This document shows, one piece after another, positions 1 to 39,492 of a stretch of DNA of 64,000 nt. The number at the start of each line of letters is the position of its first letter. Position 1 is the stretch's first letter. Position numbers and translations under genes: made by a program. The notes below the pieces were generated by a model. That model was not told the DNA's origin. It worked only from the letters and a program-made list of their open reading frames with translations, and made no database searches. This DNA comes from a bacterium. Its GTDB lineage: Bacteria; Armatimonadota; Fimbriimonadia; Fimbriimonadales; Fimbriimonadaceae. The stretch covers positions 186,001 to 250,000 of the forward strand of contig PNMZ01000001.1 in assembly GCA_013823945.1 (NCBI GenBank), read 5' to 3'.

Positions 1-359
1 GTGAAATCATTCGCCGCATCGAACTCCGGGGCCTCAAAATCACCGGTCTCAAGCTCATGAACGCCCCCCGTGAAACCGTCGAAGCTCACTATGCCGAGCA
101 CCGCGAGCGGCCTTTCTTCAACGACGTTGTCAACTACCTCGTCAGCGGCCCGGTCGTCGCCCTCGCTGTCACCGGCCCCAACGCCACCAAGGCCATCCGC
201 ATGATGATGGGCGCAACCAACCCCGTCGAAGCCGAACCCGGCACCGTCCGTGGCGATATGGCCCTCACCATCGACGACAACCTCGTCCACAGCAGCTCCG
301 ACCCCGAAGCCGCCGCCAACGAACTCAACCTCTGGTTCCCCGAAGGCACCGTCAACTAA
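1..359 (+). CDS. ndk: Nucleoside diphosphate kinase, 5'-truncated by window edge
   Basis: Cytosolic enzyme that moves the gamma-phosphate from ATP to nucleoside diphosphates through a phospho-histidine, balancing NTP and dNTP pools. The reading frame is open from base 3, so the first part of the gene lies outside the window. Visible family marks are a GLKL-type segment, the RGDMAL stretch, the catalytic-histidine motif NLVHSSSD and the family ending ExxLWF near the stop. About 119 codons are present against the usual 135-150, so only the N-terminal beta-strand and nucleotide loop are missing. It is followed by a palindromic repeat and then an unrelated nuclease-like gene. Confidence 0.95.
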   Translation, partial: EIIRRIELRGLKITGLKLMNAPRETVEAHYAEHRERPFFNDVVNYLVSGPVVALAVTGPNATKAIRMMMGATNPVEAEPGTVRGDMALTIDDNLVHSSSDPEAAANELNLWFPEGTVN

Positions 360-403
360 TACTCTTCTCCCCCTCTCCGATTTAATAGAGTTTTAAGTCA
401 TTT

Positions 404-448
404 TTCCCCCTCTCCGTTTCAATGGAGAGGGGGATCAAGGGGGGGAGG
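404..448. repeat. Palindromic dispersed repeat, copy 1
   Basis: CCCCCTCTCC at 406-415 is complementary to GGAGAGGGGG at 424-433 around an 8-base loop, followed by a G-rich tail ending GGGAGG. A second copy with the same stem, loop and G-rich tail is at 39453-39492. A decayed partial copy of the left arm lies just before at 368-386. Seen directly; its role (transcript end, repeat family) is inference. Confidence 0.75.
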
Positions 449-475
449 AAGGGTTTTTCGGTTCATAATGTATGG

Positions 476-1441
476 ATGGATGTAATAAATATCCTAAACA
501 GTCTCGCAAAATCTCGACCAATCTTCTATTCCGAAGCTGATTTTCAGCATGCCTTTGCTTGGGCCGCAAAGTCGCTCTACATGTGTGAACCCCGGCTCGA
601 AGTCAGAATGATCCACACTTCTTCGCGTGCCTCATTGGACTTACTCCTAAATCTTCCCGGTGAAAAAATCGGCTTTGAATTTAAGTATAAAACCAGCCCA
701 ATTTCAGCAGCGATATATGGAGAAGTCTTTTCCCTACTAAATCAAGGGGCGCTTGATATCTTTCGTTATGATTGCATCAAGGATATATCGCGTTTGGAAA
801 ATGCAATTGGATCGGGCCAGATTTCCCGTGGCTACTTCATCCTGCTTACAAATGAACCAGCAGTCTGGTCTCGACCGATTCGAGAGGGCCACGCCGATGA
901 TGAGTTCAAACTACATGAGAACGAAATTCTCGGCGGGGTACGAACCTGGGGCCCAGCTGCCGGTCCGGGAACAAGGAAAAACCGGGAGGACACGTTAACA
1001 CTGACTGGAGAGTATCAGTGCCACTGGTCTCCCTTTAGCCTGATACAAGGAGAGAAATTTGGCACGTTCAATTGCCTTGTAATTGAAGTTTCCACTCCAA
1101 GCTTTTCTATGCACTCATCAAACAAGACTAGCCGTCCAATCACTCGTTTATCCAAACCCCGAGCAAACTCGGGACGCTATTCAAAACTTACTGAATTTCT
1201 CTCCCAAACGGCAGAGAACCGAATCGAACTTACATTTGACCAAGTTCGGGAGATTGTCGGCAGCCTCCCTGCATCCGCCTACAATCACTCCGCTTATTGG
1301 TCTAACCACCCCTCTCATCCACCAGCGGTGGCTTGGCTCAGTGCAGGCTGGAAACAATCAAAGCTAGACTTTCTCGGTCAGCGAATCTGGCTCGAACGAA
1401 TCACCGACCACCCAACCCACTCAACGAAACCCCCTCAATAA
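476..1441 (+). CDS. Putative PD-(D/E)xK nuclease fused to DUF7662-like C-terminal domain
   Basis: Not a housekeeping gene. The N-terminal half resembles restriction-endonuclease-fold proteins: an acidic helix (YSEADF), then Asp55 in SLDLLL and Glu68-x-Lys70 in GFEFKYK, spaced as in the PD-(D/E)xK core, then a Gln/Asp/Tyr helix (LLNQGALDIFRYD). The last ~75 residues (about 233-308) match the DUF7662 pattern: a YSKLTEFL start, LTFDQVREIVG, an SxxYWSNHPSHPPAVAWLSAGW core and a final basic strand. The ATG at 476 is preferred over an in-frame ATG at 422 because the first 18 codons of the longer form lie in the palindromic repeat. The 3' end overlaps the convergent permease gene by 41 bp. A DNA-cleaving, defence-type role is inferred from domains only; activity is unknown. 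Confidence 0.6.
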   Translation: MDVINILNSLAKSRPIFYSEADFQHAFAWAAKSLYMCEPRLEVRMIHTSSRASLDLLLNLPGEKIGFEFKYKTSPISAAIYGEVFSLLNQGALDIFRYDCIKDISRLENAIGSGQISRGYFILLTNEPAVWSRPIREGHADDEFKLHENEILGGVRTWGPAAGPGTRKNREDTLTLTGEYQCHWSPFSLIQGEKFGTFNCLVIEVSTPSFSMHSSNKTSRPITRLSKPRANSGRYSKLTEFLSQTAENRIELTFDQVREIVGSLPASAYNHSAYWSNHPSHPPAVAWLSAGWKQSKLDFLGQRIWLERITDHPTHSTKPPQ

Positions 1442-3137
1442 AATACTTCTGCGCGAAGAAGAACAACAGCAACACCGGAATCGTCGACATCGTCGCAAAC
1501 GCCATCATCAACGCCTGATCCGTCCCCCGATCCGAAGCAAACAAACCCATCGCGTAACTCATCGGCATCTTCGCCGGCGTATTCACATAAATCAACGGAC
1601 CCATAAAGTTGTTCCAAGCCCCCATAAACGTCCAAATCGCAATCACCGCCAAAGCCGGCTTCACAAGCGGCAACATGATCTGCCAAAACGTCCGCCAATA
1701 CCCGCACCCATCAATCCGCGCTGCTTCCTCCAGCTCCATCGGAATCGTCCCAAAGAACTGCCGCAACAGAAACACATTAAACGCTCCCGCAAAGAACGTC
1801 GGCACCCAGATCGGCAAAAGCGAATCCATCCACCCTAAATTCGAGAAAATCAAGAACTGCGGCAACATCGTCACCGCCCCCGGCAACATCATCGTCATCA
1901 GCATCACAAAGAAAAGCTGATCCCGCCCCGGAAACCGCAACCGCGCAAACCCATAAGCCACAATCGAACAGCTCAAAACCGTTCCCAAAACGCTCATCCC
2001 CGCCAGCCAAAGCGTATTCAGCAAGTAGGCCATGCCAAACCCCGTCTCCAGCGGCATCCACTCCAAAGCATCCGAGTAGTTTTGCCACCGCAAGCCTCGC
2101 TCCCGCACTGGCTCAACATCCTCCGGCATAACTGTGAGTCGCTGACCTTTCCGATCCCCAGGCTCCAAGACCTCCAGAAGCCGAGACCCATCCTCCTGAT
2201 CCTTCACTGTAAAAGCCGTAAATGCCGTCCCGTTCTCGACCCCACTCCAAATCGGCTGATCCCTCGGAATTTCCTTCAATGAACCCGCCGGAACTTCAAA
2301 TCTCCGTCCCCTCAAGCCGTAAGGCCGCTCAACCTCAACCAACCACTTCCCACCTGCAACCTCCGAATCCTTCTTGACTTTGACCGCCCGACCATCGTAT
2401 CGCGCGGCAAATTGCGGATTCTCCGGATCCAAGAAAGCGTGCGTCTTCTGCACCTGCGGAACCCAAACAATGCCATCCGTATTCGCCAAATCCCGTTCCT
2501 CTTTGAACGAAGTCGTCAGGAGCCAAACAAACGGAATACTAAAAATCACCGCGCCTGCCAGCAACCCCAGTTGAGCAGAAATCTTTTTCGTTACCCCCCG
2601 CGCCGCTGTCGTCCGCTCCGCCAAAACCATCCCCACCATTGCCGCTACGAGCAGCCCCAAAAGTCCAAAAATCGCCGGCCAGTGGAGCGGAATCGCCCCC
2701 CTCAGAATCGAAATCTGCCCCTCCATCCCCCGCAACCACAAGAACGAACCAACCCCAACCCCCGCCCAAATCAATGCCGCCAAATACCTTCCCCGATCTT
2801 CCTCCGCATTCAAAGCCGTTCGCCCTTGAATCAATCGCGAACCCACCATAAACACCGACAGTAAAAGCATCCAACCCGGAAATGGCGTGTAAATCCAAAC
2901 CAACGGCAACCAACTCCCCACCGCCTCTCGCCCAAGCTCCTTGGGAATAAATGATCCCACCAACAGCAAGAAGCCGCCAATCCCCGCCGATATCCCAAGC
3001 CGCTTCACCAGCCCCGCTCGGTCAACCCCCGGCGACCCAAATCCAAGTCGCATCCCCAAAAAGACTGCTCGAAGCCCTAAAACCACGCCCACCCAGATGC
3101 AAACCGTGAGTAGCAAAAAGACAACTTCGGCTGTCAC
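1401..3137 (-). CDS. Carbohydrate ABC transporter permease, MalG type, with extra N-terminal helices and large insert
   Basis: Inner-membrane permease subunit of an importer of the sugar (CUT1) class. The C-terminal ~200 residues are classic MalG: the LLNTLWLAG helix, YGFARLRFPG, and the EAA loop (ELEEAARIDGCGYWRTF then LPLVKPAL) that docks on the ATPase. At 578 residues it is twice the usual length. The first ~180 residues add about five membrane helices. Residues ~229-349 are inserted between the first canonical helix (SFKEERDL...WVP) and the usual WQNYSDAL segment; this insert holds two similar ~45-residue beta-rich repeats. It overlaps the upstream fusion gene by 4 bp, so the two are co-translated. 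No ATPase gene is in the window; a shared MsiK-like ATPase elsewhere is likely. Confidence 0.85.
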   Translation of the reverse strand: MTAEVVFLLLTVCIWVGVVLGLRAVFLGMRLGFGSPGVDRAGLVKRLGISAGIGGFLLLVGSFIPKELGREAVGSWLPLVWIYTPFPGWMLLLSVFMVGSRLIQGRTALNAEEDRGRYLAALIWAGVGVGSFLWLRGMEGQISILRGAIPLHWPAIFGLLGLLVAAMVGMVLAERTTAARGVTKKISAQLGLLAGAVIFSIPFVWLLTTSFKEERDLANTDGIVWVPQVQKTHAFLDPENPQFAARYDGRAVKVKKDSEVAGGKWLVEVERPYGLRGRRFEVPAGSLKEIPRDQPIWSGVENGTAFTAFTVKDQEDGSRLLEVLEPGDRKGQRLTVMPEDVEPVRERGLRWQNYSDALEWMPLETGFGMAYLLNTLWLAGMSVLGTVLSCSIVAYGFARLRFPGRDQLFFVMLMTMMLPGAVTMLPQFLIFSNLGWMDSLLPIWVPTFFAGAFNVFLLRQFFGTIPMELEEAARIDGCGYWRTFWQIMLPLVKPALAVIAIWTFMGAWNNFMGPLIYVNTPAKMPMSYAMGLFASDRGTDQALMMAFATMSTIPVLLLFFFAQKYFIEGVSLSGLGGR

Positions 3138-5557
3138 TTATCCACCTCCGAATGCACCCATCGAGGCGCGAGCTTAAACTGAATCAAAGTCACCGCCACA
3201 ACAATAAAGAAAATCATCCACGCAATCGCACTCGCATACCCCATTCGGAAGTATGCAAACCCGTTGTTGAACAGCATATAAACCGGAGTTGCCAAGCTAT
3301 CATTCGGCCCCATGTTCTCCCCTTTTGTAATGAGATAAACCCCGTCAAAAGTCTGCAAAACACCGATAAAGCCCATCACTGAGTTAAAAAACACCAGCGG
3401 GCTGAGTTGAGGCAAGGTAACGCTCCAAAACTGCCGCCATCCCGATGCCCCGTCGATATCTGCCGCCTCATACAGGGTCTTAGAAATCCCCTTCAATCCC
3501 GCCAGCCACAGAATCATCGCTCCTCCAGCCCCCCATAGACCCATCAAAATCAAAGCCGGCTTCGCCCAAGGCTCAACCGTAAACCATCCCGGGGCATTGA
3601 CGCCAAACCACTGGGCAATCGTATTCGTCCAAAAATTATTCAGCAATCCCCGCTGATTATCCGGAGTCAAAATCCACATCCATAAAAATGTTGAAGCCAC
3701 CGTCGGCGCAATCGCGGGCATGTAATAAACAGTCCGATAAAACCGAATCCCTTTCGCCCCCGTGTTCAAAAGGAGCGCAATCACCAAGCCCGTGGTCAAA
3801 CCAAGCGGAATGCCAATCACCGCCAAATAGGCAACATTTCCAAGGGCCTTCAAAAGCAAATCCCGGTCAACCACAAATACATCAACAAAATTCTTCCCCC
3901 CCACAAAGTGCGCCGGATTCAAAACATCGTAATTCATGAATGCAAAAACGAGCGATGCAATCATCGGACCAAGCGTAAAGACCAAGAAACCAATAATCCA
4001 GGGCGAGATAAAGGCATAACCCGCCCGCGTTTCCTGCGGAGAAACTCGTCCCGAACCCCTCCGAATCAACATCGCTACCCAAGTAACCAGACCAGCCACG
4101 ACTACCCCAAATACTCCCAAAACCCAACCCAAAATATTGACCCTTGGATAATCCTCCTTCGAGAAATACTCATCCAAAATCTGCTGAACCCGCGTCTGAC
4201 CGCTCACCAGAGCTTCTTCACTTGACTGCGCCCCCCGACAGGCCTGCTCAATTGCCCGAACATGCTCATCCCATAGTTTCAACCCCACAAACGTCGCTGG
4301 CCGCAATCGAGCAAACGGCATCATATCAACGTGCTGGCGCAACGCCAACTCGTAAGTACTGTTTCCACTTGCATAAGTATCAACAAGCCACTCATTCGCC
4401 TCAATATTTGCCGCCATCCGAGGAATAAACCTTCGCCCCCGCGACTGCTCCAAATCCGCCTGACCCCGCGCATAAAGCTGTCTGCCCTCCAAACTCTGGA
4501 CAAACTTGATAAACTTCCAACTCGCCTCAATGTTCCGCGCCCCTCTCGGAATCGCATAAGCAAACCCGCCCGACCATGTGATGAACTTGTCCTTCTCGTC
4601 GGCGAACCGACCACGCTGATAGTAGCGATCATCCGGAACTGGAGCCGGCGCAGTTAAGAATTTTGCCTTTGGCGAATAACGAGCATAACTGGCAATCATC
4701 CAGTCCCCGTTAATAATCATCGCAATTTGTCCAATTGCAAACGGGTCATTTTCACCCCCCCTAGTTCCAGATTTGAATTTGAGGGTGTTCTCGTACCCCC
4801 CCAAAATGTCATATCCCGCTTTCATGAAATCAAGCGCTTCGACTGCCGCCGGAGTATTCAATGTACATTTCCGACCATCCTCGCTCATGAAGTTCGCATT
4901 GTTCTGAAACGCAAACATATACAGCCAAGAATTCCCTTCGTTGGGAATGAAGCCCGCGCGCTTGATCGTTCCGTCCGCATTGAACTCCGTCAAAACTTTG
5001 CTGTAAGCAAGCACCTCACTCCAAGTCCTCGGTGGCCTGGTCGGATCAAGCCCGGCTTCTCTCAGCTCGTCCGCTTTCTCCGCAAAAACCTCGGTGTTGT
5101 AGTACAAAACTCGGTTATCCGCCCCTATCGGAATCCCGAAAAGTTTGCCATCGTAAATCGCTTCGTTCCAAGTCGCCGGATAGTATTGATCGGCAGTTGG
5201 CGTACGCGGATCGCTGCCCCGATCTCGCTCAATCAAGTCGTCCAGCGGACGAAACGCCCCCCGGCTCGCCCAATCCGAAATCGTGAACCGATCCTGCTGA
5301 ATCACATCCGGCGGCGCCCCTCCCACAATCGCCGTCATTAACTTTTGGGGATTCATCGCCCCCGCGCCCATCCCCAAAAGCTTCACTTTTATATCCGGGT
5401 TCTCGCGTTCAAACTGACGAACGATCAGGTCATTTCCTTTCTCATCCGGTGTTATTGCTAGTCCCCATACCGTAATCTCTGTCTTTGCCGCCAAACTTAA
5501 ACACGAAAAGACCACCAGTGACAACATCGCCACCATCCGCATAACCATTCTGTTCAC
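3134..5557 (-). CDS. Fused sugar-binding protein and ABC permease (MalE-MalF type)
   Basis: One polypeptide joins two importer parts that are normally separate. After a signal segment (hydrophobic run LSLVVFSCLSLA) comes a family 1 extracellular solute-binding domain of about 440 residues, starting at EITVWG and including the GGAPPDVI and DWMIASYA-type motifs. A helix then anchors it (GWVLGVFGVVVAGLVTWVAML) and a MalF-type permease follows, with SPWIIGFLVFTLGP and the EAA loop (LYEAADIDGASGWRQFW). It probably binds a sugar or oligosaccharide outside the membrane and hands it to its own permease half; the substrate cannot be read from sequence. The start is uncertain: GTG 5557 has GGA seven bases upstream; ATG at 5608, 5641 or 5548 are alternatives. 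It is divergent from the MFS gene. Confidence 0.85.
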   Translation of the reverse strand: MNRMVMRMVAMLSLVVFSCLSLAAKTEITVWGLAITPDEKGNDLIVRQFERENPDIKVKLLGMGAGAMNPQKLMTAIVGGAPPDVIQQDRFTISDWASRGAFRPLDDLIERDRGSDPRTPTADQYYPATWNEAIYDGKLFGIPIGADNRVLYYNTEVFAEKADELREAGLDPTRPPRTWSEVLAYSKVLTEFNADGTIKRAGFIPNEGNSWLYMFAFQNNANFMSEDGRKCTLNTPAAVEALDFMKAGYDILGGYENTLKFKSGTRGGENDPFAIGQIAMIINGDWMIASYARYSPKAKFLTAPAPVPDDRYYQRGRFADEKDKFITWSGGFAYAIPRGARNIEASWKFIKFVQSLEGRQLYARGQADLEQSRGRRFIPRMAANIEANEWLVDTYASGNSTYELALRQHVDMMPFARLRPATFVGLKLWDEHVRAIEQACRGAQSSEEALVSGQTRVQQILDEYFSKEDYPRVNILGWVLGVFGVVVAGLVTWVAMLIRRGSGRVSPQETRAGYAFISPWIIGFLVFTLGPMIASLVFAFMNYDVLNPAHFVGGKNFVDVFVVDRDLLLKALGNVAYLAVIGIPLGLTTGLVIALLLNTGAKGIRFYRTVYYMPAIAPTVASTFLWMWILTPDNQRGLLNNFWTNTIAQWFGVNAPGWFTVEPWAKPALILMGLWGAGGAMILWLAGLKGISKTLYEAADIDGASGWRQFWSVTLPQLSPLVFFNSVMGFIGVLQTFDGVYLITKGENMGPNDSLATPVYMLFNNGFAYFRMGYASAIAWMIFFIVVAVTLIQFKLAPRWVHSEVDK

Positions 5558-5687
5558 GCGCAGTCCAACCACTGTCAATAAAACGCCCCTCGTCGGGCAA
5601 CGGTTCATCCTACACCATAAAAGCCGTGAATACGTATACATAAAAATCCCTACACAATAAGATTTTTGCTTTCATAATGAAAATATC

Positions 5688-39412: not shown

Positions 39413-39452
39413 TCACCAATTCGCCTCTCTGTATATAAGAGATCGTCTCCTT

Positions 39453-39492
39453 CCCCTCTCCGTTTTAATGGAGAGGGGGTTAGGGGGTGAGG
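39453..39492. repeat. Palindromic dispersed repeat, copy 2
   Basis: CCCCTCTCC/GGAGAGGGG around GTTTTAAT with the tail TTAGGGGGTGAGG. Same design as copy 1 at 404-448. Lies between the superoxide dismutase gene and a larger inverted repeat. Confidence 0.75.

Follow-up and report, generated by a model that had tools for sequence, protein, structure and literature searches.

A Solitary Nuclease-DUF7662 Fusion Protein as a Candidate Type IV-Like Restriction Endonuclease

Introduction

Cleavage by DpnI-type endonucleases is restricted to Gm6ATC-modified DNA. Winged-helix (wH) domains fused to PD-(D/E)XK, HNH, GIY-YIG, and PLD nucleases have been described as giving modification-dependent enzymes that read N6-methyladenine, and in 87% of cases the genes nearest to the wH-endonuclease gene do not include a methyltransferase (PMC11037411). 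Here, a protein whose domain order equals that of DpnI (PMC4117772) was analysed in the window, the term used throughout for the whole 64,000-nucleotide stretch of bacterial DNA under study. Like DpnI and the PD-(D/E)XK-wH enzymes FcyTI and Psp4BI, it is a single polypeptide with a predicted N-terminal nuclease and a C-terminal domain modelled as winged-helix-like, accompanied by no methyltransferase (PMC4117772, PMC11037411). By analogy, the window protein may work as DpnI does. The two nevertheless differ in both halves. When the catalytic domains were compared by eye, the CPxC...CxxC cysteines present in the DpnI-like proteins of the same phylum were found to be missing from the window nuclease, which has a SEADFQ motif of its own. 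The C-terminal domain, DUF7662, has a profile with no detectable resemblance to that of DpnI_C (PF17726): hhalign gave a probability of 0.2% against DpnI wH sequences sampled from the phylum of the window, and PF17726 had no match in 20 DUF7662 members. The window protein is therefore not filed in the DpnI family.

Four further types of described system are comparable in part. The wH-HNH and wH-GIY-YIG fusions are similar in that one reader is swapped among nuclease folds, DUF7662 being found with HNH_2, GIY-YIG, and PD-(D/E)xK domains, whereas the reader is of the DpnI wH type there and DUF7662 here. Auxiliary PD-(D/E)XK nucleases are stated in general terms to accompany BREX (PMC12839542), and the literature search on them yielded no name for the nuclease family of the window. 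Standalone relatives of the window nuclease are located inside BREX-2 and BREX-5 loci, while the window protein is fused and solitary, and no PglZ was found in its genome. As regards the GmrSD/RloF type IV enzymes, a phage RloF protein has a C-terminal DUF7662, but GmrSD domains are absent from the window protein in a Pfam search. Type II endonucleases of the EcoRV/BamHI type provide the closest solved folds to the nuclease domain, from which they differ in an identity of only ~10% and in that the window nuclease has no cognate methyltransferase.

Results and Discussion

Gene Structure and Nuclease Domain

The features of the locus are collected in Table 1. According to the ORF listing, the reading frame of the fusion gene is open back to an ATG at position 422, which lies within a palindromic repeat. 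The ATG at 476 is the preferred start because the homologues begin at the equivalent residue in the alignment, and the start given in a preliminary description of this DNA is thereby retained over the upstream one.

Table 1. Positions of the fusion gene, its parts, and its surroundings in the window.
Feature	Position	Strand	Basis
Nuclease-DUF7662 fusion gene, 321 aa	476..1441	+	ORF, Pfam match, homologue alignment
Predicted PD-(D/E)xK nuclease domain, residues 1-206	476..1093	+	Conservation; model pLDDT ~96; nearest folds restriction endonucleases
E20, invariant acidic residue, start of first core helix, SEADFQ motif	533..535	+	Alignment, model
D55, predicted catalytic Asp, core strand 2	638..640	+	Alignment, model
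E68-F-K70, (D/E)xK motif, core strand 3	677..685	+	Alignment, model
Disordered linker, residues 207-230	1094..1165	+	pLDDT <50 at residues 211-230
DUF7662 domain (PF24698), winged-helix-like model	1166..1402	+	Pfam E=1.4e-16; model pLDDT ~95; RepE Z 6.2
Last 12 residues, TDHPTHSTKPPQ, in ancestral flank antisense to permease 3' end	1403..1438	+	G006 flank homology
Flanking Ndk-like gene (nucleoside diphosphate kinase by inspection), host context	57..359	+	ORF, sequence
Flanking convergent ABC permease gene, 3' end overlapping fusion gene by 41 bp	1401..3137	-	ORF, flank alignment
Acquired segment, 937 bp versus 60 bp at orthologous site of congener G006	449..1385	.	Flank alignment
Palindromic repeat, one of 13 dispersed copies, unrelated to the nuclease	406..433	.	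Genome search, G006 alignment

The nuclease domain was aligned with 26, then 32, intact members sharing 33-40% identity with the window protein. An alignment that included DUF7662-only proteins was discarded, since MAFFT spread those over the N- and C-terminal regions. All 32 aligned sequences have E20, D55, and E68, and K70 is kept in at least 90% of them, a pattern that is not due to chance over sequences so divergent; SEADFQ, RLE, and RYDF..D..RLE are further conserved motifs. The order D55...E68-x-K70, previously read as that of a PD-(D/E)xK core, was confirmed, the three residues being encoded at 638-640, 677-679, and 683-685 and conserved throughout the alignment.

The AlphaFold2 model built from the 32-row alignment has a pLDDT of ~96 over residues 1-206 and consists of a helix at 20-35, strands at 38-44, 53-60 (carrying D55), and 63-72 (carrying E68 and K70), a helix at 93-112, and a strand at 118-125. 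This is the alpha-beta-beta-beta-alpha-beta core of the PD-(D/E)xK superfamily, with D55 on strand 2 and E68 and K70 on strand 3, which places the predicted active-site residues on adjacent strands. Structure prediction, proposed earlier as a check on the assignment, has accordingly returned a restriction-endonuclease fold for this domain. Foldseek matches with the model were weak, none reaching E <0.001. A second structural aligner placed EcoRV (Z 7.7), SwaI (7.0), BamHI (6.6), and Hjc (5.8) at or near the top, together with AF1548, XisH-like proteins, HincII, and DrdV, the best Z of 7.7 being a middling value. All of these proteins belong to the PD-(D/E)xK superfamily. By sequence, no homologue of the nuclease was found in the PDB at E<=10, the domain has no family in Pfam, NCBIfam, or PADLOC, and a PHROGs search matched no family. 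Single homologues match DpnII-MboI, HSDR_N, NERD, and Hjc weakly in Pfam, agreeing at the level of the superfamily only. On the basis of the model, the nuclease domain very probably has the PD-(D/E)xK fold, and metal-dependent cleavage is the predicted activity. Membership in LmuA was also considered and rejected, the single weak PADLOC match (E=0.002) belonging to one homologue and the window protein having none.

It should be noted that a housekeeping DNA repair or Holliday-junction-type nuclease would agree with the weak Hjc and NERD matches of single members and with the Hjc fold match at Z 5.8. Such a gene would not be expected to be as patchy or as often decayed as this one. A nuclease match of any kind is present in 7/61 related genomes, the window's own included, and several of these are partial; truncated or frameshifted copies were found at eight loci (L029, L030, L032, L033, L035, L050, L053, and L100), a sign of frequent gain and loss. 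A housekeeping role is consequently very improbable.

The C-Terminal Domain and Its Fusions

Residues 235-299 match DUF7662 (PF24698) with 60.5 bits against a cut-off of 26 (E=1.4e-16), and the DUF7662-like module noted previously at the C-terminus is thus supported by a score above the curated cut-off. In the alignment, the other DUF7662 domains stop before the 12-residue tail of the window protein. Modelled alone from 20 sequences, residues 1-78 of the domain have a pLDDT of ~95 and follow the order helix, strand, helix, short helices, helix, strand, strand, which is that of a winged helix. The best structural match is the DNA-bound winged helix of RepE (79 residues, 3.2 A) at Z 6.2, a value that is common for chance arrangements, and Foldseek listed CodY, Stn1, CtsR, and MarR-type domains among its matches. 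The domain is termed winged-helix-like here, not a proven winged helix, because the structure-match scores are middling. Sequence comparison of DUF7662 with the PDB gave matches at chance level only, and the literature search found no paper that names the domain.

The partners of DUF7662 are varied. It is fused to HNH_2 in two plasmid proteins and to DUF4268 elsewhere, and in the Streptococcus phage RloF protein it occurs with GmrSD plus DUF4268. A further fusion, to a GIY-YIG domain, has an E of 0.0011 and falls under the Pfam cut-off, but is annotated so in its record. The domain is also found standalone and on proteins that are not nucleases. DUF7662 is reasonably likely to be a DNA-binding reader. 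It is plausible that the domain guides the nuclease, as suggested by the winged-helix-like model and the fusions to several nuclease and restriction proteins.

Far from being an accident of the window, the fusion to the present nuclease is a recurrent architecture: genomes G261 and G273, both from the taxonomic family of the window's host, encode intact versions of 310 and 309 aa, respectively. A decayed copy with internal stops adjoins a 1581-aa Avs2 homologue in G182. No partner gene recurs beside the intact copies. On the tree of the nuclease domain, the fewest changes that account for the fusion are two, and 0% of the bootstrap trees have one; the well-supported branches force only one.

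Two other occurrences of the domain may be recorded. A second DUF7662 protein of the host genome (L092, G000:C1:767890-771114) has 437 aa and an N-terminus that is CBS-like by inspection. At L077 (1498-2547, minus strand), a standalone DUF7662 gene lies 3 bp downstream of a HARE-HTH gene with a GIY-YIG-like region, and the pair is perhaps a split form of the same reader-nuclease logic.

Insertion Site and Proposed Mode of Action

The flanks of the fusion gene, window positions 1-448 and 1386-2938, align at 89-91% with the congener G006, in which the nuclease is absent. In G007 and G005, ndk likewise adjoins the permease gene, giving three congeners with an empty site, for which a gain in the lineage of the window is the simplest reading. 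The third-position GC of the fusion gene is 46%, compared with 66-83% in its neighbours, which agrees with a foreign origin. Earlier suggestions that the gene is single-gene cargo and lacks a partner gene are supported by the empty sites and by the neighbours, which are ndk and an ABC permease gene. Terminal repeats were not found at the junctions of the acquired segment, and a transposon or an integron cassette was ruled out on that account.

The palindromic repeat that had been reported beside the gene does exist, but its link to the nuclease was not sustained. The palindrome CCCTCTCCGTTT(Y)AATGGAGAGGGGG has 13 copies in the genome, compared with 0 for the reversed control, including copies at window positions 39452-39479 and on contigs C1, C2, C4, C5, and C9 of the host genome (G000), and a near copy is situated at the empty site of G006. 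As a genome-wide repeat that accompanies the site even where the gene is missing, it is considered unrelated to the nuclease and was rejected as a part of the system; it is possibly a REP-like or terminator-like repeat. The ABC transporter genes on the other side (1401-5641, minus strand) are unusual by inspection, comprising an apparent fusion of solute-binding protein and permease of 835 aa and a second permease of 578 aa with a long N-terminal extension.

Regarding function, a role in restricting foreign DNA is likely, and a solo restriction endonuclease, most probably type IV-like, is the leading explanation, with about an even chance of being correct. The gene is solitary with no cognate methyltransferase nearby, as is characteristic of type IV enzymes. 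Because it stands alone, arrived by itself, and lacks a cognate methyltransferase next to it, a modification-dependent enzyme is the most economical reading. In the proposed process, DUF7662, a winged-helix-like reader on a flexible linker of ~25 residues, would bind some feature of DNA entering the cell. That DNA would then be cut by the metal-dependent PD-(D/E)xK domain with E20, D55, E68, and K70, probably acting as a dimer. Host DNA would be spared because it is without the mark, as with DpnI and the endonucleases fused to wH domains, and protection against phages would be the presumed benefit. Dependence on DNA modification, taken by itself, is suggested with a little less than even confidence. 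It would not be inherent to the nuclease, since most relatives are without DUF7662 and often belong to multi-gene systems, some of them with methyltransferases.

A counterpoint to the type IV-like reading is provided by the host genome, where searches with two methyltransferase families found one N6_N4 and one N6 methyltransferase; they lie on contigs other than that of the window and could protect host DNA in trans. The protein would then be a type II-like endonuclease of the classical kind that cuts unmodified sites, while a trans-acting methyltransferase protects the host. Also in accord with this alternative is a locus (L018) at which the start of the nuclease gene and the stop of a type III/II-like methyltransferase gene overlap and a second methyltransferase gene is adjacent upstream. 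However, the window gene has no methyltransferase next to it, inspection of the neighbours of the other fusions revealed none either, and a lone gene of this type gained by an unprotected host would be toxic, so that this alternative is rather unlikely.

A broader proposal extends the type IV-like reading and is advanced more tentatively still. DUF7662 might be a second, independent family of winged-helix-like mark readers, swapped among PD-(D/E)xK, HNH, GIY-YIG, DUF4268, and GmrSD proteins. The SEADFQ nuclease might at the same time be an undescribed restriction family whose standalone members act in BREX operons and whose fusion to DUF7662 yields a solo type IV enzyme. Under this proposal, the mark that DUF7662 reads may be other than Gm6ATC. 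The analysis of the window protein offers testable roles for a widespread domain of unknown function and for a nuclease family that is missing from Pfam, NCBIfam, and PADLOC yet recurrent in BREX loci. If DUF7662 reads DNA modification, the short list of such readers grows and new modification-dependent enzymes become possible; if it reads sequence, it would be a portable targeting module. Either way, the small single-protein fusion allows the questions about nuclease and reader to be answered directly.

Genomic Contexts of the Nuclease Relatives

In one scan of a collection of species-representative genomes, 34 loci encode relatives of residues 1-206. They are mostly standalone proteins of ~205-240 aa from Chloroflexota, Actinomycetota, Pseudomonadota, Bacillota, and others. 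Plasmid records contribute 15 more, haloarchaea included, and no relative was found in the phage collection. Defence loci recur among their surroundings. In Actinoplanes and Micromonospora (L020, L021, L022, L024, and L026), the nuclease is placed between or beside the genes for PglW, a NERD-kinase protein matched at 1584 bits, and PglX, matched at 1764 bits, an arrangement that corresponds to BREX-2/Pgl, and a PglX remnant is near another relative (L030). Two haloarchaeal plasmids carry it inside loci annotated as BREX-5 (L072 and L073), and a Chloroflexi MAG has it between BrxC and a split PglX (L009). At three Micromonospora loci (L023, L025, and L028), it comes after a type I R subunit (HsdR) and a Ser/Thr kinase, and L018, with its methyltransferase genes, likewise belongs to these defence contexts. 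These defence contexts are counted as raw loci, and those from Micromonosporaceae are mutually related and hence not independent. The neighbourhood comparison called for in the preliminary description therefore points away from housekeeping operons and repeatedly to BREX, R-M, and other defence loci, which makes a defence role for the window protein probable.

These contexts also bear on the possibility that the window protein is an orphaned auxiliary effector, that is, a BREX-type backup nuclease which has lost its partners or targets through DUF7662 instead. The standalone homologues embedded in BREX-2, BREX-5, and BrxC/PglX loci are what this origin would lead one to expect, and auxiliary nucleases of the PD-(D/E)XK type are described for BREX, if only in general terms (PMC12839542). 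Co-encoded PglZ, BrxC, or PglX, however, characterises the standalone relatives only and not the window protein, whose host has no PglZ; furthermore, the fusion is found as a solitary gene in several genomes, and the empty sites favour the arrival of one gene over the residue of a larger system. Such an origin is judged unlikely, in comparison with the solo restriction endonuclease proposed above.

Other relatives are associated with mobile elements. On small Rhodococcus/Prescottella plasmids (L070, L071, and L076), the nuclease gene is divergent from rep, with rep/parA beside it; the conservation of this position suggests a function on plasmids. Standalone relatives are also found within prophage head modules, with methyltransferase genes nearby (L066 and L067). 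Occurrence in prophages and beside plasmid rep genes was counted against the solo restriction reading. It agrees, as do the clean one-gene insertion at the window site and the many decayed copies, with a mobility enzyme, meaning an endonuclease, either free-standing and homing-type or element-borne, that was gained through its own spread rather than for host defence. Against this, the fusion copies occur in unrelated surroundings that share no target flank, the junctions are without the terminal repeats of a transposable element, and the repeated position in BREX operons is unlike that of homing genes, which leaves a mobility enzyme quite unlikely and restriction by a solo enzyme preferred.

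Finally, RNase J or RNase J-like genes adjoin some members of both domain families. A gene for an RNase J-like metallo-beta-lactamase is situated downstream of the nuclease at two Azospirillum loci (L005 and L008), and on the Thermococcus plasmid pTBMP1 (L113) a DUF7662 protein gene adjoins an RNase J gene, near a type I restriction gene.
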